From positions 310,001-374,000 of the forward strand of contig NZ_JAAOTJ010000004.1 in NCBI RefSeq assembly GCF_011297335.1: a stretch of 64,000 bases of DNA, in the 5' to 3' direction. The translations under genes were made by a program, and so were the position numbers. Position 1 is the stretch's first letter. Each line of letters starts with the position of its first letter. Shown piece by piece: positions 33,316 to 44,160 of this stretch. The DNA comes from Catellatospora methionotrophica. Lineage in GTDB: Bacteria > Actinomycetota > Actinomycetes > Mycobacteriales > Micromonosporaceae. The notes below the pieces were generated by a model. That model was not told where the DNA came from and did not search any database. It worked only from the letters and a program-made list of their open reading frames with translations.

Positions 33316-36096
33316 TCAGCCGTTCGCCGACGTGACCGCCACGTAGACGTAGGCGTTGTCGTGCGTCGCCCACAGCAGCTTCAGCTTGACGCCGTTGGCG
33401 ACGTTCGCGTCACCCGGGTTGCCGCTGCCCAGCACGGTGAAGCCGAGGCTGGCACCGTACAGGTCGGTGGCGGGGGTGCCGTCCGGGTTGACGATCCGCG
33501 TGGTGTACGGAGCGTTGCCCAGCGACGGGATGACGACGGAGGCGTCGGCGTCGCGGGCGTACAGGTCCTCGCCCACCAGCTCCAGGCCGGGAGCCCAGCC
33601 CTTCGCGTCGGTGAACTCGCCGACACCCTTCTGCGCCTTGAACTTGGTGCAGTACTCGACGTACAGCTCCGTCGGCACCTCCAGGCACTCCTTGAACGCG
33701 TACGTCGGGTGCAGCGTGAACGCCGCGTTCGACGACTGCGGACGGCCCGGCAGGTTCTTCAGCACGGACGTGTCCTTCGTGGCCGCGGTGCCGGTCCGGC
33801 GCAGCGGGTCGAAGTGCGAGTCCACCAGCAGCAGACCACCCTTGGCGCCGTAGCTCGGCAGCGCGGTCGAGTTGGCCGTCACGTGGTTGGTGTTGCCGTA
33901 CGTGGTGTCCCGGTACCACAGCAGCATGCCGGGCGCGTTGTACTTGATCTTCTCGACCTTCCACGCCTCGTGCGCGTAGGTCGTGTCGTAGGCGTACTGC
34001 AGGCCCTTGTCGAACCCGTCGAAGTTACGCCACTCGGCCAGGTAGTAGTGCGCCTTGGACGAGGTGCCGGTGTCGATCCGCCAGCCGGGGCCGGTGGTGT
34101 CGGTCCAGGTGCCGCCGCTGGCGGTCCAGCCGTTGGCGCCGCTCTCGACGTCGTCGCTCCACGTGGTCGCGCCGCCGCCGGTGACCGAGAAGTCGTCGGC
34201 GAACCAGCCGCGCTCCTGGAAGGCGGCGTCGGTGGCCTGGCGCAGCCGGACCTTGACGTTGGTGCCCGCGTACGCCGACAGGTCGACGTAGTCGTGACGC
34301 CAGCCGCCGCTGGTGCCGGTCAGGCCGTAGTGCCGCCCGAAGTTGCCGTGCAGGTTGCCGTTCGGGTCGGCGTAGTCGTCATCGGTCGACACCAGGGTGC
34401 CGGCCTCGTTGTAGACCTTCAGGTCGGCCCAGGTGGCGCCGCCGTCCGTCGAGACCTCGACCAGGCCGTAGTCCCAGTCCTCTTCGATGACGTAGTTGTT
34501 CCACATCCAGAACTTGGCGTCGGCCGCGTTCGGAACCGCGATGTCACGCGCGATCTTGATGTCGGCCCAGTCCTGGTCGGCGCCGGTGTACCACATGTTG
34601 GCGCCGCTGTGCGGGGCGGCCAGCGTGACCGTCTTCGGCGGCAGGTCGATCTTGATGCCGTCCTGGGTGCCGACCGGCGTACGCGAGGTCTGGCCCAGCT
34701 TGATGTTCTGCGTGCCCGAACCCGGCGTGATGACCTGCGGGTCGGCCCAGCCGAGCACCCACTTGTCCCAGATGCCCATGTGCGTCGGCATCGACTGGAA
34801 GATCGGGCCCGAGTGCGAACCCGAGGACATGAGGTCCCAGAAGTCGATGCCGGACTCGCCGTTGCCGGAGGTGTCGTACAGGTCCGGCAGACCGAGGTCG
34901 TGGCCGTACTCGTGGGCGAACACGCCCACGCCCGAGTCCTCGGGCTGCACGATGTAGTTCGAGATCTTCAGGTTGGTGCCCGGAATGGTGAAACCGTTCG
35001 GGACGGCCGAGGAGTGCGCCCAGATGGCGTACGGGCCCTGGGCCCCGCCGCCACCGGACTTGTCCTCACCCGCGTGCACCAGCACGAGGTGGTCGATCAC
35101 GCCGTCCGGCTCGAAGAAGTTGCCGTCGCCGTCGCGGTCGCCCTGGTCCTCGATGTCGTAGTCGGCCCACGGGAAGTTCGGCTGGGCCGCGGCGAGCGCG
35201 ACAACAGCGTCCGTGGCCATCCGCTGCGGACCCTGCGGGTTGTCCGGGTGGCCCTGCATGCCCTGGATCTCCGGGGCGACCCAGCCGCCCGCGCCGTCCG
35301 GCGAGCAGGTCGTCGCGGCGTACCAGCCCTCCGAGTGCGGCAGGGTGATCCACGGGGTCGCCTGGCCCTCGACGGTGTAGGCGCCCTTCGACATCTCCAG
35401 GTACATGTTGCGCATGGTCAGACCGGTCAGGTCGATGCCGGGCTTGCCGTCCGGGCCCTTGAGGTCGGTGCGCACGCGCTTGGTGATGCCCTTGGAGGTG
35501 TAGAGCATCTTGTTGTAGTGGTCCTGGTTGAAGTCCGAGACCCACATCGAGTTGTTGTCCAGCTTGGACAACGTCGCCGGGTTCGGGATGCCGTTGTGCA
35601 GCGGGCCGTTCTGGATGTTGCCCGGCACGCACTCGCGCGACTCGTTGACCGTCCGCGGCACCATCACGCCGGTGAAGTCGTCGTTCGCGGTCGGGCTGTA
35701 CTCGACCAGCATCGTCAGCAGCTTGGCGACCTGGGTGGTCGGCGCCTGCTTGATCTTGCGGGGGCTCTTGCGCTCCTTGATGGACTTCGCTTCGAGCTTG
35801 GCGATCTCACGCGCGGTGAGCGGGTTGCCCGCCGCGTGCTTCTTGTCGATGGCACGGGTCTTGTCGGCCTTCGCGCCGAAGACGCCGCCCGCGCCCTTGG
35901 TCTCCTTGCCCGTGGTGTCCGGCTGGACGGCGGGCTCGGCGTAGTTGATGTAGAACTCGCTGGGGCTGATCACGGCTGTCGGACCGGTGGCGGCGGCGGC
36001 CGTCGTGGGTGCGGCCAGCCCGACAGCGGCCAGTGCCAGCGCAGGGACAGCGGCTAGTAGCCGCCGTCTCCGCTGCGCATGGATGGCGTGCTTCAT
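33316..36096 (-). CDS. Secreted M6-family metalloprotease, second copy
   Basis: The 926-residue product has a signal peptide with an arginine cluster (AQRRRRLLAAVPALALAAVG), a propeptide, and an M6 catalytic domain with HEYGH at residues 395-399 followed by DLGLPDLYD, then long C-terminal beta-rich domains. It is longer than the convergent paralogue at 30696-32984 because of extra sequence on both sides of the catalytic core. ATG 36096 has a GGAG upstream. An inverted repeat at 36198-36237 lies about 100 bases before the start and may be an operator. Confidence 0.9.
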   Translation of the reverse strand: MKHAIHAQRRRRLLAAVPALALAAVGLAAPTTAAAATGPTAVISPSEFYINYAEPAVQPDTTGKETKGAGGVFGAKADKTRAIDKKHAAGNPLTAREIAKLEAKSIKERKSPRKIKQAPTTQVAKLLTMLVEYSPTANDDFTGVMVPRTVNESRECVPGNIQNGPLHNGIPNPATLSKLDNNSMWVSDFNQDHYNKMLYTSKGITKRVRTDLKGPDGKPGIDLTGLTMRNMYLEMSKGAYTVEGQATPWITLPHSEGWYAATTCSPDGAGGWVAPEIQGMQGHPDNPQGPQRMATDAVVALAAAQPNFPWADYDIEDQGDRDGDGNFFEPDGVIDHLVLVHAGEDKSGGGGAQGPYAIWAHSSAVPNGFTIPGTNLKISNYIVQPEDSGVGVFAHEYGHDLGLPDLYDTSGNGESGIDFWDLMSSGSHSGPIFQSMPTHMGIWDKWVLGWADPQVITPGSGTQNIKLGQTSRTPVGTQDGIKIDLPPKTVTLAAPHSGANMWYTGADQDWADIKIARDIAVPNAADAKFWMWNNYVIEEDWDYGLVEVSTDGGATWADLKVYNEAGTLVSTDDDYADPNGNLHGNFGRHYGLTGTSGGWRHDYVDLSAYAGTNVKVRLRQATDAAFQERGWFADDFSVTGGGATTWSDDVESGANGWTASGGTWTDTTGPGWRIDTGTSSKAHYYLAEWRNFDGFDKGLQYAYDTTYAHEAWKVEKIKYNAPGMLLWYRDTTYGNTNHVTANSTALPSYGAKGGLLLVDSHFDPLRRTGTAATKDTSVLKNLPGRPQSSNAAFTLHPTYAFKECLEVPTELYVEYCTKFKAQKGVGEFTDAKGWAPGLELVGEDLYARDADASVVIPSLGNAPYTTRIVNPDGTPATDLYGASLGFTVLGSGNPGDANVANGVKLKLLWATHDNAYVYVAVTSANG

Positions 36097-36197
36097 GGTC
36101 ACTCCATTCCTCGGGGTGTCCGTCACGGGCAGGGGATGCCGTGGCGGTGACAGGTGGAGACGGAGGCGTGCAAGCCTGCCCTCCCATGCCATACGCG

Positions 36198-36237
36198 GCT
36201 TCACGTGGCGGATGGAGTTGTGCGGCTCACGTGAAGC
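36198..36237. promoter_or_regulatory. Inverted repeat upstream of the second M6 protease
   Basis: GCTTCACGTG at 36198-36207 and CACGTGAAGC at 36228-36237 are perfect 10-base inverted copies, 20 bases apart. The spacing suits an operator or a looped site better than a terminator. The rest of the 36097-36422 gap has no gene that I can see. Confidence 0.5.
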
Positions 36238-36422
36238 AAGCACTTCACAATCGCAAATGAACACACGACGAGGCATGGCCCGGTTAACGGATCAGGGCAC
36301 CGCGAACAGTCGATGTCCCAGGATCCATATGGCCGGATAGTCGTGACCGAAAAGATGAGTTGCGCGAGGTTGCGCGCCTATCAGGACAGTCGGCCAGCAT
36401 GGCGGTGGGTCATGCCGGATGC

Positions 36423-37007
36423 TCAGAACGGGTCCGGGCACAGCACGCAGCCCGGCCCGCCCGGTCCGCCGGTCGGCACGGTCATGTCGGTGACGGCCGG
36501 TGCGGCGACCAGCGGCGAGTCGACGGCCAGCGGCCCGGTGACGGTGGGTCGTGCCGTGCCGCCGACGACGGCCCAGCTCAGCGACACGCAGGCCAGACGG
36601 GTGGTCTCGTCGGCGATGACGCACACGGCCTGCGCCCCGGGGTAGACGCGGATGGCCGTCAGGAGCGGATGTTCCGGGGGAGGGTTGCGGGGAAACGGGC
36701 GCGGCGAGCCGTAGGCGCCGGTGCCGCCGTACGCCGCCAGCCCGAACACCTCGTATCCGCTGGTCGGTGTTCGGCAGGCGACGACGGTGCCGACGATGTG
36801 GACGAAGTAGACGTCGACGTACTCGAAGTACTGCTCGACAGAGGTGTTGTCGATGGTCGCGGTGGTGCTGGTGCCCGGCGGGCAGGACAGCCACCGGTAT
36901 CTGGTCTCCTTCGGCGGGTCCGCCGCCGCGGCGGGCGCCGCGCTGACGGCGACGGCCAGCAGCGCCGTCGTCGCTGCCGCGAATACCGCGCGGACGATCC
37001 TGTTCAT
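36423..37007 (-). CDS. Small secreted protein ending in a CVLCP motif (copy 2)
   Basis: This 194-residue protein has a clear Sec signal peptide (MNRIVRAVFAAATTALLAVA, cleavage after an AAA stretch) and no other membrane segment. It is paralogous to the product of the gene before it. Shared blocks are Y-x-WLxCPxGTS near the mature N-terminus, AVCVIADETTRLxCVSxSW in the middle, DSPLVAAPAVTxM near the end, and a terminal GPGCVLCP. Conserved cysteines suggest disulfides after export. AGGAG lies eight bases before the ATG. I do not recognise the family. Confidence 0.85.
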   Translation of the reverse strand: MNRIVRAVFAAATTALLAVAVSAAPAAAADPPKETRYRWLSCPPGTSTTATIDNTSVEQYFEYVDVYFVHIVGTVVACRTPTSGYEVFGLAAYGGTGAYGSPRPFPRNPPPEHPLLTAIRVYPGAQAVCVIADETTRLACVSLSWAVVGGTARPTVTGPLAVDSPLVAAPAVTDMTVPTGGPGGPGCVLCPDPF

Positions 37008-37054
37008 GGGGGTGGCTCCTGTTCGCTCTCGTACTCGGCGGGCATGACGATCAG

Positions 37055-37092
37055 GGCCCGCGCCGGTGCGGTGATCCGCACCGGCGCGGGCC
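37055..37092 (-). terminator. Strong hairpin between the two secreted-protein genes
   Basis: Bases 37055-37071 and 37076-37092 form a perfect 17-bp stem with a TGAT loop, 17 bases beyond the stop of the first secreted-protein gene. It could end that transcript or reduce read-through into the second gene; no U-run is present. Confidence 0.65.
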
Positions 37093-37109
37093 GGACGTCG
37101 GAGGTGGTG

Positions 37110-37670
37110 TCAGGGGCAGAGCACGCAACCCGGCCCGATGGGACCGGGATTCATCAGCATGTTCGTGACCGCGGGTGCGGCCACCAGCGGTGAGTCGACG
37201 GGCACCGGGCCGCCGACGACGGGCAGCAGTACTCCGTCGGTGTCGACCCAGCTGATCGACACGCAGCCGAGACGCGTGGTCTCGTCGGCGATGACACACA
37301 CCGCCCGTACACCCGGCCTGATCCGGACCGCGCCGGTGTAGTGGCCGCTGAACAGGTTGTCGAACTTGTAGGGAATGGGGGTGCCGTAGGCCGAGTCGAC
37401 GCGGTACGCCGCCATGCCCCAGGCGTCCTGGTCCAGTTGCGGTGACTTGCAGGGGAACACCTGGCCGCCGAAGGAGGCGAAGGCGCGGCCCTGGTAGTCG
37501 ACGAAAGTCGAGGCGTCGTCGATGCGTACGGCGTTGCTCGTGCCCGCGGGGCAGTCGAGCCAGGTGTAGTAGGCCTGCGACGCGGGAACCGCCGTCGCGG
37601 GGCTGACCGTCGCGGTGGTCAGGATCATCATGGTGGCAGTCAGGACCAAGGCGCGGATGGTACGGCGCAC
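37110..37670 (-). CDS. Small secreted protein ending in a CVLCP motif (copy 1)
   Basis: This 186-residue exported protein has a signal peptide (hydrophobic core LVLTATMMILTTATV, cleavage near ATA-V). It shares the blocks listed for its paralogue, including the terminal GPGCVLCP as its very last residues. The GTG start lies three bases after the stop of the LuxR-type regulator gene with GGGGAG seven bases upstream, so the two are co-translated. Function unknown; the tight link to the regulator suggests that the protein is its product of interest. Confidence 0.85.
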   Translation of the reverse strand: MRRTIRALVLTATMMILTTATVSPATAVPASQAYYTWLDCPAGTSNAVRIDDASTFVDYQGRAFASFGGQVFPCKSPQLDQDAWGMAAYRVDSAYGTPIPYKFDNLFSGHYTGAVRIRPGVRAVCVIADETTRLGCVSISWVDTDGVLLPVVGGPVPVDSPLVAAPAVTNMLMNPGPIGPGCVLCP

Positions 37671-37673
37671 GGG

Positions 37674-38729
37674 TCACTCCCCTTTGGGTTTGTGCGGTGT
37701 CTCCTCGGCGGGCGCCTGCCGCGCTGCTTCTGCGCCCAGCCGAAGTCCGAGCTGGAATCGGTTGCTCACGTGGTATCTGTCCATGAGGGCGGACAGGGTG
37801 TAGGCGATGGTCCGCATGCTGATGTCGAGCCTCGCGGCGAGTGCGGTGTCGGTGTAGCCCCTGGCCAGCAGCGCCAGGATGGTGCTCTCGCGAGGCGTCA
37901 GGTGTGCGGGCGGTGACCAGTCGCGACCCGGGTCCCTGGCCCGCGCCCACTGCTGCAGGAACAGGGCGGTGAGCTCGGCGACGATGCCCGGTGCGACGAC
38001 CTCCCACATGCCGCGGGTGCGGTCGGAGGGATTCTGGGGCACCAGCGCCGTGGTCCGATCGAAAATGATCATCTTCCCCGGCACCTGCGGCAGCTCCCGG
38101 TACTGCATACCGTGGAAACGGAGTTCGGTGTCGTGCACCTCCGACTCGTCCTCCGTCGACGCGGGCACGCCCAGGCTGAGGATCGAGATCCCGCGCGCGA
38201 GCATCTTGCGCTCCGCAGGTGCGGCCGTCTTCAGGGCGCTGGAGCTGAAGGCCGGCTCCGGATTCATCCCCATGTGCTCGTGGCGTTCGGCCGCCGCCAG
38301 CTCCATGAGCCGGTCGACCGTCCTGGTGAGACCGTCGAGCGGCCGTGCGGCGCCGGCGGGCAGCCGGGCGAGGTCGGTGATGATGTCCGGGTACGTCATC
38401 CGGGTCAGCCGCTGGCGCAGCCGGTGCCTGGCCAGCGCGGTGTGGTGGTGCCGGTCCTGGAGCAGCGAAACCACCTGGGCGGGTTCGCGGCTGGACCAGA
38501 CGCGGTCGTCTTCGGCCCTCTCGTGGGAGCTGCGGTGCACCGGGGCGGCCGCGCCCAGCGCGATGAGTTCGTCCAGGGCGCTGCGGACCAGCCGCGGCTT
38601 CATCTCCAGGGACCGGCTGATGTGCTCCACGGACCAGGGCCCGAAGGTGATGAGGGTGCGATAGACCAGGTCGGCGTGCGGCGACACGCCCCATTTCAGC
38701 AATGAGGGCACGACCGGTGATTCGAGCAT
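37674..38729 (-). CDS. LuxR/GerE-type regulator with TrmB-like N-terminus
   Basis: The 351-residue protein has an N-terminal winged-helix-like region (about residues 15-65, with SVEHISRSLEMKPRLVRSALDEL), a middle domain of about 200 residues without a recognised signature, and a C-terminal GerE helix-turn-helix (about 275-340: LTPRESTILALLARGYTDTALAARLDIS). There is no receiver domain, so it is not a standard two-component regulator. ATG 38729 has GGGGAGG five bases upstream. It heads an apparent operon with the two secreted-protein genes. The nearby palindrome at 38831-38846 is a candidate binding site. Confidence 0.88.
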   Translation of the reverse strand: MLESPVVPSLLKWGVSPHADLVYRTLITFGPWSVEHISRSLEMKPRLVRSALDELIALGAAAPVHRSSHERAEDDRVWSSREPAQVVSLLQDRHHHTALARHRLRQRLTRMTYPDIITDLARLPAGAARPLDGLTRTVDRLMELAAAERHEHMGMNPEPAFSSSALKTAAPAERKMLARGISILSLGVPASTEDESEVHDTELRFHGMQYRELPQVPGKMIIFDRTTALVPQNPSDRTRGMWEVVAPGIVAELTALFLQQWARARDPGRDWSPPAHLTPRESTILALLARGYTDTALAARLDISMRTIAYTLSALMDRYHVSNRFQLGLRLGAEAARQAPAEETPHKPKGE

Positions 38730-38785
38730 CAAGGCCTCCCCGTGAAACCTCTCCGGCGCTGGCTCGCGTCGCGCCGGACAACAGC

Positions 38786-38890
38786 AATCTAGACAGGCGG
38801 ATCAAGGCCGACCAGGGACCGTCCGTCGGATTGCATGTTTGTGCAATCACGTCTAGTGATCTTGGAGGTGTGCTCGCCCCGCCCTATGTT
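38786..38890. promoter_or_regulatory. Divergent promoter with central palindrome, copy A
   Basis: Rightward, TTGGAG (38862-38867) and TATGTT (38885-38890) are 17 bases apart. Leftward, towards the LuxR-type gene, TAGATT lies at 38786-38791. The palindrome TTGCATGTTTGTGCAA (38831-38846) is about 59 bases from both predicted start points, the position of a class I activator site. The same elements with the same spacing recur at 39452-39556. Confidence 0.65.
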
Positions 38891-38896
38891 CGTGGA

Positions 38897-39090
38897 CATG
38901 ACCTTCCCCGTACGGGGCAGGTCGCGGGCCACGGGTCCGGGCGTGAGCGGGTGCGAACCGCGGCGGCCGGAACCTCGGTGCCGCGCAGTACGTGCGTGCA
39001 CGGCGGGCCCTGCCCGGCGGAGTACGGGGGACCACGTGCCGGCGGCGACGAAAGGGGCGGCTGCCGGTGTCACGCCGGTAGCCGCCCCTT
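38897..39090 (+). ncRNA. Putative hairpin-ended non-coding transcript, copy A
   Basis: The rightward promoter of copy A would start a transcript near 38897 that ends at the hairpin 39052-39067/39075-39090 (16 bp with one wobble). Conserved blocks GTACGTGCGTGC (38988) and TACGGGGGACC (39023) also occur in copy B, but their spacing differs by two bases between copies, which breaks any shared reading frame. The hairpin also lies just beyond the stop of the leftward gene at 39153 and can serve as its terminator. Confidence 0.4.
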
Positions 39091-39152
39091 CGCACAGGAG
39101 AGGGTCGTCCATGCCGTGCCCGGGGGCGGCGGATCAGCGCCGCCCGCACCGG

Positions 39153-39389
39153 TCACGTCTCGTCAGGTTCCTCTTCGGCCGGATCCTCGATGGGGGTCTG
39201 CTGCGGCGCCTCGGCGCCGAGTCGCAGTCCCAGCTGGAATCGGTTGGACACCTCGAACCGCTCCATGAGCGCGGACAGGGTGTAGGCGATGGTGCGCACG
39301 CTGAGGTCGAGCTGCGCGGCGATGGCGGCATCGGTGTGGCCCGCGGCCATGAGCGCGACGATGGTGCTCTCACGTGGGGTGAGCTGCAT
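39153..39389 (-). CDS. Stand-alone GerE helix-turn-helix protein
   Basis: This 78-residue protein is essentially only a LuxR-type DNA-binding domain (LTPRESTIVALMAAGHTDAA near its start), followed by a short acidic tail. It is closely similar to the C-terminus of the 351-residue regulator at 37674-38729, including the RTIAYTLSALM and VSNRFQLGLRLGAEA segments. It seems to come from a duplication that lost the sensor part. GGGGAGG lies 12 bases before the ATG, longer than usual. It may compete with the full-length regulator for the shared palindrome. A degraded remnant is also possible. Confidence 0.7.
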   Translation of the reverse strand: MQLTPRESTIVALMAAGHTDAAIAAQLDLSVRTIAYTLSALMERFEVSNRFQLGLRLGAEAPQQTPIEDPAEEEPDET

Positions 39390-39451
39390 GAGTGATAGAG
39401 GCCTCCCCGTCGAAACATGCCGGTGCGAGGACCGCCCGGCCGGACTAGAGC

Positions 39452-39556
39452 AACCTAGACAGCGTTGTCGGCCCAGGCCAGGCCAGTCCCGCAGATTGCA
39501 GGATCGTGCAACGGTCGCGAAGTGATCTTGGTCGTTTCCGTCACGGGGCCTATGTT
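39452..39556. promoter_or_regulatory. Divergent promoter with central palindrome, copy B
   Basis: This matches copy A element by element: rightward TTGGTC (39528-39533) and TATGTT (39551-39556) with a 17-base spacer; leftward TAGGTT (39452-39457); palindrome TTGCAGGATCGTGCAA at 39496-39511, again about 59 bases from both start points. The GTGATCTTGG block before the rightward promoter is identical in both copies. Confidence 0.65.
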
Positions 39557-39562
39557 CAGAAC

Positions 39563-39740
39563 GCGACGTCCCTCCAGGTGGAGGTCGGGGCACCGGCCCC
39601 GGGCGTCCGGCGGTGCGGACACCGATCGGGCGGCCGGTCCGGCGCTGCGGGGTACGTGCGTGCCTGTGGGTGTCAGCCCGCGGATACGGGGGACCGCGTG
39701 CCGACGACGAGGGGGCGGCCACCGGCAGGTGGCCGCCCCC
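39563..39740 (+). ncRNA. Putative hairpin-ended non-coding transcript, copy B
   Basis: The transcript would start near 39563 and end at the hairpin 39711-39723/39728-39740. It carries GTACGTGCGTGC at 39652 and TACGGGGGACC at 39685, at nearly the same distances from the start as in copy A. There is no ATG with a binding site. The 39390-39755 gap contains nothing else. Confidence 0.4.
39711..39740 (-). terminator. Hairpin after acs
   Basis: A perfect 13-bp stem with a GGCA loop begins 15 bases beyond the acs stop on the minus strand. It also closes the rightward transcript of copy B, so it is likely bidirectional. Confidence 0.75.
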
Positions 39741-39755
39741 TGTGATCGGCCCGAA

Positions 39756-41708
39756 TCAGTCCTCGTCGGACTTGCTCGACTGCATACCCTCGGAGATCAG
39801 GTTCATCACCGCGGAGTCCTGCAGCGTCGTGACGTCGCCGAGCGAGCGGTTCTCCGCCACGTCGCGCAGCAGCCGCCGCATGATCTTGCCGGACCGGGTC
39901 TTCGGCAGCTCCGTGACCAGCATGATCTGGCGCGGCTTGCAGATCGGGCCCAGCGTCTTGGACACGTGCTCGCGCAGCTCGGGCACGCCGACCTCGGCGC
40001 CGCCCTTCAGGATCACGAACGCGACGATGGCCTGGCCGGTCGTCGGGTCGGTGGCGCCGACGACCGCCGCCTCCGCCACCGCCGGGTGGGCGACCAGCGC
40101 CGACTCGACCTCGGTGGTGGAGATGTTGTGGCCGGACACCAGCATCACGTCGTCGACCCGGCCGAGCAGCCAGATCGCGCCGTCCTCGTCGCGCTTGGCA
40201 CCGTCGCCGGCGAAGTAGAAGCCCTGCTCGGCGAAGCGCGACCAGTACGTCTCCAGGAAGCGCTTGTCGTCGCCCCAGATGGTGCGCAGCATCGACGGCC
40301 ACGGGCCGGTCAGCGCCAGGTAACCGCCGCCGCCGTTGCCGACGATCGAGCCGTCGTCCGCGACGACCTCGGCCTTGACACCGGGCAGCGGGCCCATCGC
40401 CGAGCCCGGCTTGCAGTCGGTCACGCCCGGCAGCGGGGAGATCATGATCGCCCCGGTCTCGGTCTGCCACCAGGTGTCCACCACGGGGCACCGGTCACCG
40501 CCGATGTGCTTGCGGTACCACATCCAGGCCTCGGGGTTGATCGGCTCGCCGACCGAGCCGAGCAGCCGCAGCGAGCTGAGGTCGAACTGGGCCGGGATGT
40601 CGTCGCCCCACTTGGCGAACGTGCGGATCGCGGTCGGCGCGGTGTAGAGGATCGTGACGCGGTACTTCTCGATCAGCTCCCAGAACCGGCCGCGGTGCGG
40701 GGTGTCGGGGGTGCCCTCGTACATGACCTGGGTCGCGCCGTTGGACAGCGGGCCGTACACGATGTAGCTGTGCCCGGTCACCCAGCCGATGTCGGCGGTG
40801 CACCAGTAGACGTCGGTCTCCGGCTTCAGGTCGAACACCGCGTGATGGGTGTACGAGGTCTGCGTCAGGTAACCGCCGGTCGTGTGCAGGATGCCCTTCG
40901 GCTTCGCCGTGGTGCCCGAGGTGTACAGGATGAACAGCGGGTGCTCGGCGTCGAACGGCTGCGCCTCGTGCTCGGGGCTGGCGTTGCCGACCACGTCGTG
41001 CCACCACAGGTCGCGGCTGTCATCCCAGGCGACCTCCTGGCCGGTGCGGCGTACGACCAGGACCTTCTCGACGGTCGGGCACTCGGCCACGGACTCGTCG
41101 ACGGTCGGCTTGAGCGCGCTCGGCGCGCCACGGCGGTAGCCGCCGTCGGCGGTGATGACGACCTTGGCGCTGGCGTCCTGGATCCGGCCGCCGAGCGCGT
41201 CCTTGCTGAAGCCGCCGAACACCACCGAGTGGGTCGCGCCGATGCGGGCGCAGGCCAGCATCGCGACCGCGGCCTCGGGGATCATCGGCATGTAGATTGC
41301 GACCCGGTCACCGGCGTTCACGCCGAGGCCGGTCAGCGCGTTGGCCGCGCGGCACACCTCGGCGTGCAGGTCGGCGTACGTGATGGTGCGGGTGTCGCCC
41401 GGCTCGCCCTCCCAGTGGATGGCGACCCGGTCGCCCAGGCCGTTGGCCAGGTGCCGGTCCAGGCAGTTGTACGCGACGTTGAGCTGACCGCCGACGAACC
41501 ACTTCGCGAACGGCGGGTTGGTCCAGTCCAGTACCTCGTCCCACGGCCGGGCCCAGTCGAGCCGCCCGGCCTGGGTCTCCCAGAACGCCAACCGGTCGGC
41601 GTCAGCCTCCGCGTACGCCTGCGCGGTGACGTTCGCCTGGGCGGCGAACTCCGCCGACGGTGGGAACCGGCGCGACTCGTGCAGCAGGTTTTCGAGGGTC
41701 TCGCTCAC
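39756..41708 (-). CDS. acs: Acetyl-CoA synthetase (AMP-forming)
   Basis: Acs activates acetate to acetyl-AMP and then acetyl-CoA. The 650-residue product is the normal length and has the ATP-binding loop [11 protein letters not shown], the adenylation motif [10 protein letters not shown], the [10 protein letters not shown] hinge region and the C-terminal [14 protein letters not shown] motif. The lysine in that last motif is catalytic and is the known site of inhibitory acetylation. The start is GTG with GGGAGG seven bases upstream. A degenerate Fic protein is divergent across 144 bases, an arrangement that I recall from other actinobacteria. Confidence 0.96.
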
Positions 41709-44040: not shown

Positions 44041-44160
44041 CAACAGCCCTCAGCGGGTGCCATCCCCCCCGCAGCCGCTGAGCGGGCTCCGGCTCACCAT
44101 CCCCCCTGAGAGCCGGACCCCAAGACGACCCCCGTCTCCCCGGACGGGGGTCGTCGCCAT
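44041..44160 (+). ncRNA. 6C small RNA
   Basis: Two 8-bp stem-loops have C-rich loops. The first stem is 44049-44056 with 44075-44082 and its loop holds CCATCCCCCCC. The second is 44088-44095 with 44110-44117 and its loop holds CCATCCCCCC. A perfect 13-bp terminator hairpin (44124-44136 with 44143-44155) follows. This is the plan of the actinobacterial 6C RNA, which in Mycobacterium and Streptomyces binds C-rich loops to G-rich sites in mRNA. It also lies between the HAD and ssd genes as in mycobacteria. The 5' end is uncertain; the next candidate upstream -10 is near 43953. Confidence 0.85.

Follow-up and report, generated by a model that had tools for sequence, protein, structure and literature searches.

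Results

Organization of the locus

Within the window, the 64,000-nucleotide stretch of Catellatospora DNA that was analyzed, two related regulator genes on the reverse strand each lie behind an intergenic region (copies A and B) with a palindrome flanked by divergent predicted promoters, the rightward one of which faces a predicted small RNA. The features, by position in the window, are:

37110-37670, reverse strand: 186-aa protein whose N-terminus looks signal-like by eye, separated by 3 bases from the full-length regulator upstream of it; paralogue at 36423-37007
37674-38729, reverse strand: full-length regulator, 351 aa, with a TrmB-like winged helix and PLD-like domain followed by a C-terminal GerE domain
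38786-38791, reverse strand: predicted leftward -10 of copy A, TAGATT, at offset 39 from the palindrome edge
38831-38846, no strand: palindrome A, TTGCATGTTTGTGCAA, presumed regulator operator
38862-38890, forward strand: predicted rightward promoter of copy A, TTGGAG-17-TATGTT (-35 at 38862-38867, -10 at 38885-38890)
38897-39092, forward strand: predicted small RNA A, from a 5' end placed by means of the -10 to a 3' end formed by the predicted hairpin 39052-39090
38986-39042, forward strand: conserved core of RNA A, with ACGUG and CGUGC stems and the 6-base 3' bulge GGGGAC
39153-39389, reverse strand: GerE-only regulator, 78 aa, sharing the recognition helix of the full-length protein and lying downstream of the predicted leftward promoter of copy B
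39452-39457, reverse strand: predicted leftward -10 of copy B, TAGGTT, at offset 38 from the palindrome edge
39496-39511, no strand: palindrome B, TTGCAGGATCGTGCAA, presumed regulator operator
39528-39556, forward strand: predicted rightward promoter of copy B, TTGGTC-17-TATGTT (-35 at 39528-39533, -10 at 39551-39556)
39563-39745, forward strand: predicted small RNA B, 5' end predicted, hairpin at 39710-39741
39650-39704, forward strand: conserved core of RNA B
44083-44159, forward strand: 6C RNA (RF01066) with two C-rich loops, 50.9 bits (cut-off 47), 4.3 kb right of RNA B

Copies A and B belong to a tandem duplication in which the regulator genes are 79% identical over 203 bases, the intergenic blocks 70–75% identical, and the whole intergenic region 67% identical. 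The gene for the 186-aa protein follows the full-length regulator so closely that the two probably form a single operon. This protein and its paralogue, encoded on the same strand, are both small, have signal-like N-termini, and fall into no Pfam family at E 0.001; most of the mapped genus loci have relatives close to the regulator. The gene at 33316-36276 (reverse strand) encodes an M6 (immune inhibitor A-type) metallopeptidase; several mapped loci contain relatives.

Predicted divergent promoters around a central palindrome

A first-pass annotation, made from the sequence alone, had described two duplicated divergent promoters with a palindrome midway between them, and direct reading confirmed this arrangement, with the palindrome centers (38838.5 and 39503.5) lying half a base off the midpoints of the paired -10s. 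It had also placed the palindrome about 59 bases from the predicted starts on each side; with +1 predicted 7 bases past the -10, this puts the center at -58.5 or -59.5 in both directions in each copy. The identical block that it reported in both copies, GTGATCTTGG, was found at 38856-38865 and 39522-39531. The -35 begins at a distance of 15 or 16 bases from the palindrome, which overlaps neither it nor the -10. Class I activators act from -61.5, and an operator near -59 and upstream of the -35 would be close to such a site, given the predicted starts.

A sigma-70 consensus scan of 37000-40000 returned no passing promoter, so the predicted promoters rest on conservation and not on a consensus match, and a scan of the same interval for T-tailed terminators found none.

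The pattern TTGCA-N6-TGCAA occurs twice in the whole 8.39-Mb genome (pattern count), both times at this locus between divergent promoters. A reversed control pattern also occurs twice genome-wide, so that the number is not raised; what is unusual is the location of both palindromes at one locus with promoters on either side. Within the window the two occurrences compare with none in 100 shuffles. When the window was scanned for palindromes with up to three mismatches in ten together with TANNNT at an offset of 38 or 39, only sites A and B were returned, each on both sides, while 20 control windows, made by shuffling within 200-base blocks, had 0–2 matches each, none with one mismatch or fewer.

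Conservation of the geometry in Catellatospora

A search of relatives for the palindrome beside GerE regulators, proposed in the first-pass annotation, showed that the palindrome, its equal spacing to the -10s, and its GerE neighborhood are conserved in the genus. The genus genomes (n = 11) hold 34 exact palindromes, compared to 12 for the reversed control, and 20 of the 34 adjoin a member of the TrmB-like/GerE regulator family, in 10 of the 11 genomes. The geometry was compared at 22 in-locus sites, these 20 and two in which C replaces the T of the right arm. A TANNNT -10 at offset 38 or 39 is present in all left flanks that face a gene (20/20) and all right flanks that face a small RNA (13/13), and at none of the remaining 11 flanks (2 left, 9 right) does TANNNT occur at offsets 34–43. 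On the right side the -35 block GATCTTGG is well conserved, with T at offset 15 in 12 of 13.

Departures from the complete unit take two forms. At three regulator-only sites GATC is retained at offset 11 but there is no -10, as if an RNA had been lost from them. Conversely, two genomes (G002 and G010) carry a third palindrome whose predicted promoter would drive the RNA alone, with no divergent gene. Beyond the genus, one genome (G020) has the palindrome beside a regulator with the same helix type, but the -10 spacing is absent.

The palindrome interior is asymmetric, with T at positions 7 and 8 (0-based) in 18/22 and 21/22 sites, respectively, and a symmetric dimer does not account for this asymmetry. 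The conserved run of T at positions 7–9 of 0–15, inside the six-base spacer, keeps a fixed orientation relative to the regulator gene among the 22 in-locus palindromes.

A TrmB-like/GerE regulator family

The GerE DNA-binding domain (PF00196) was matched at 37.4 and 46.7 bits (cut-off 23.5) in the two regulators. By sequence, the 351-aa protein aligns with TrmBL2 over profile positions 16–258 (E about 2e-8). Its structural model (pLDDT 76.7, pTM 0.50) matched the TrmB-like structures 5box, 5bpd, and 3qph in Foldseek, at E 2.1e-11 but with TM 0.30 and an rmsd of 15.6 over the chain, which makes this a match at the level of domains.

In the eight genomes that carry the RNA, the recognition helix RTIAYT is present in every regulator found, full or short, and six of the eight have a GerE-only companion in the stretch examined. 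Because the full-length and GerE-only proteins share this helix, it is plausible that one regulator would act on copies A and B at once. Across 19 loci, an exact palindrome accompanies 11 of 13 regulators with the helix RT[IV]AYT and none of the six with other helices (Fisher p 0.001, indicative only because the sequences are related). This co-occurrence would fit binding of the palindrome by the adjacent GerE regulators, as the earlier annotation had supposed. In the stretch scanned, two regulators with the RT[IV]AYT-type helix (G006b and G019a) lacked a palindrome even when one mismatch was allowed. Two paralogues whose helix differs (G004b and G008a) lie beside TTGCGGGATCCCGCAA without the -10 spacing. 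At three positions (L075, 4313 and 4350; L076, 4226) TTGCGGGATCCCGCAA occurs beside related regulators with another recognition helix, without the -10 spacing.

The rightward transcript as a probable structured small RNA

The first-pass annotation held that one site could serve two divergent transcripts. The conserved -10s on both sides agree with this, while the nature of the rightward product as a small RNA had gone unrecognized. The predicted RNA measures 114–210 bases from the predicted start to the end of the strong hairpin region, and such a hairpin, without a T run, follows the core in all 13 copies. The core has ACGUG and CGUGC stems, an apical part that varies in length, and GGGGAC as a 3' bulge; the 10-base motif ACGGGGGACC, which places GGGGAC in the stem bulge, is invariant (13/13). 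The core structure is paired in 93.6% of cells, compared to 16.7–59.6% for slid structures. Covariation is modest: two pairs changed on both sides (equalled by 83 of 500 shuffles), with three such cells (3 of 500).

The 13 copies are distributed over 8 of the 11 genus genomes, one or two in each, and score 54.3–68.1 bits, with the next best match anywhere at 35.1 bits; G004, G008, and G009 lack the RNA. A strict pattern of the RNA was found in 7 of 354 family genomes, all of them Catellatospora, and misses the G001 copy, which has ACGCGCGTG. Searches with the RNA model (R1) used stricter filters, which can lose weak matches; under these, 299 relatives gave 13 strong matches in eight genomes and 17 further genomes at 24.9–30.9 bits, and 396 phylum genomes gave the window's own two copies as the only strong matches, with seven others at 27.5–35.1 bits. 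Six weak loci outside the genus were aligned and look like chance. Against 4227 Rfam families, 37000-40000 gave four weak matches (best E 0.44), none at cut-off, and the window copies fall below the 6C cut-off. Overall, the rightward transcript is probably a structured small non-coding RNA restricted to the genus, preceded by its own promoter geometry in 13 of 13 copies.

Two other candidates were rejected: a pairing site for the core in neighboring genes (no conserved GGTCCCC in eight loci), and an anti-Shine-Dalgarno stretch, noted on visual inspection in the variable 5' half of a few copies but not conserved.

Other palindromes in the genus

Outside the locus the genus has 14 sites, 13 of which were inspected (one G007 site was left out). 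Four of the 13 have, on one side, both a -10 at 38 or 39 and, at offset 15, a hexamer resembling a -35; the other nine do not have the full geometry. The first genes at all four promoter-like sites encode proteins with signal-like N-termini (judged by eye). The two in G003 are near-identical at the start, and the one tested (L145) matches Trypsin; the two in G006 have no Pfam match. Since a secreted-looking protein is also encoded behind the regulator, the regulator looks like a controller of exported proteins.

Discussion

A proposed shared operator for a regulator and a probable small RNA

From the palindrome, its spacing and conservation, and the fold and terminal hairpin of the RNA, all read in the sequence, we infer a mechanism that we consider probable, in which a TrmB-like/GerE dimer activates its own gene and a small RNA from a shared palindrome near -59. 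The one-component activator would bind the palindrome as a dimer between the two divergent promoters and stimulate both in a class I-like manner. To the left of copy A this would raise expression of its own gene and of the secreted-looking protein gene behind it, and to the left of copy B that of the GerE-only companion. To the right it would yield a short non-coding RNA that ends in a hairpin and contains the conserved stem with its unpaired GGGGAC bulge. The unit appears to have undergone tandem duplication, with reduction in relatives to forms that keep only the regulator or only the RNA.

The palindrome could instead be an operator through which the regulator represses both promoters, since divergent promoters are commonly subject to autorepression. 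This is unlikely here, with the operator clear of the -10 and -35 elements, its center near -59 on both sides, and -35s that are far from consensus, as fits a need for activation. That a protein other than the neighboring GerE regulators binds the palindrome would be in keeping with the two same-helix regulators that have none nearby. We regard this as rather improbable, however, given that 10 of 11 genus genomes have the palindrome next to the regulator family and that, in another genus, it stands beside a regulator of the same helix type.

A short mRNA for a small peptide is the least probable account of the rightward transcript, and a very doubtful one: 11 of the 13 copies do contain the start of a frame of at least 15 codons, but these frames vary in start, length, and end, many overrun the hairpin, the other two copies have no such frame, and the gaps between conserved blocks vary by other than multiples of three, with no reading frame common to all 13.

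The preferred activation model has partial counterparts in known systems. As in GerE/LuxR-type activators, there is a C-terminal GerE domain and a dyad site upstream of the -35 in a class I-like position; unlike them, the regulator has a TrmB-like N-terminal half in place of a receiver or acyl-homoserine-lactone domain, and one site is common to two promoters symmetrically. The winged helix and PLD-like domain resemble, by sequence and fold, those of TrmB and TrmBL2 (an archaeal sugar regulator and chromatin protein), whereas the protein described here continues into a GerE domain. Divergent regulator–sRNA pairs exist in other bacteria, as do sponge RNAs, and the control region common to regulator and RNA is similar; the difference is that one central palindrome would serve both here, in units duplicated in tandem. 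No regulator–RNA pair of this kind was found among the matches listed from the open-access literature, which is weak evidence of absence. In the accessible portion of a 2012 survey of LuxR proteins in actinobacteria (PMC3466318), the terms 'PLD', 'winged helix', and 'sugar-specific' are absent. The locus offers a clean case of one candidate operator for two predicted promoters, with a symmetry that is exact to one base. It is associated with a TrmB-like/GerE regulator and with a predicted small RNA that is confined to the genus and carries an invariant 10-base motif.

A possible link to 6C RNA

Like 6C RNA (RF01066, B11), the predicted RNA would be a standalone structured actinobacterial RNA; unlike 6C, a possible pairing partner, it has a G-rich bulge. 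Sponge activity, with the RNA acting in trans, is a speculative addition to the shared-activator explanation and would not replace it: the unpaired GGGG(G)A would take up the C-rich loops of 6C, which would otherwise occupy G-rich ribosome-binding sites in transcripts of the regulator and its targets. The regulator would switch on a decoy at the same time as mRNAs with a similar ACGGGG(G)A tract at their ribosome-binding sites, and its regulon would escape repression by 6C. We judge this unlikely. The two RNAs are encoded on the same contig in all eight RNA-bearing genomes, 4.3–4.4 kb apart in six and 9–10 kb apart in two, a nearness that may be inherited synteny. 6C was recognized by DNA in all 11 genus genomes (9/11 above the Rfam cut-off), which argues against the sponge in that only eight have the RNA. 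In 11 of the 13 RNAs the motif is the site of the best accessible contact with 6C of the same genome, 10 of these with a C-rich loop, but the contact energies are no better than those of shuffled RNAs (4–30 of 60 shuffles equal). According to two reports on mycobacteria (PMC10470900, PMC12395582), 6C/B11 is a repressor whose C-rich loops pair with the G tracts of ribosome-binding sites, the mode that the sponge would counter.

The leaders of palindrome-driven genes also bear on this. ACGGGG(G)A is present in 13 of 20, in seven directly before the start codon, in three away from one, and in three within hairpins in genomes that lack the RNA. The leaders of G001, G007, G004, and G009 have up to nine contiguous bases complementary to their own 6C loop. 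In opposition, the window's own two leaders have only five contiguous matches to 6C, when 12 of 40 background genes reach at least six, and leader–6C energies mostly lie inside the background of the 40 genes (-8.3 to -24.6 kcal/mol), with G001, G007, and one G009 leader as exceptions. In the one paper listed for a 6C sponge, the two passages with the word 'sponge' belong to the reference list. If the RNA does antagonize 6C, it would show how an actinobacterium can exempt a selected regulon from the action of a global sRNA with C-rich loops.

Across the DNA examined, ACGGGG(G)A precedes 7 of 82 predicted starts, five of them those of regulators of this family, which are related sequences; it is likewise found ahead of the two protease genes in G003. 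In two loci of genomes without the RNA (L068 and L069), the leaders beside the palindromes can form a hairpin, judged by eye, that presents ACGGGGGA.
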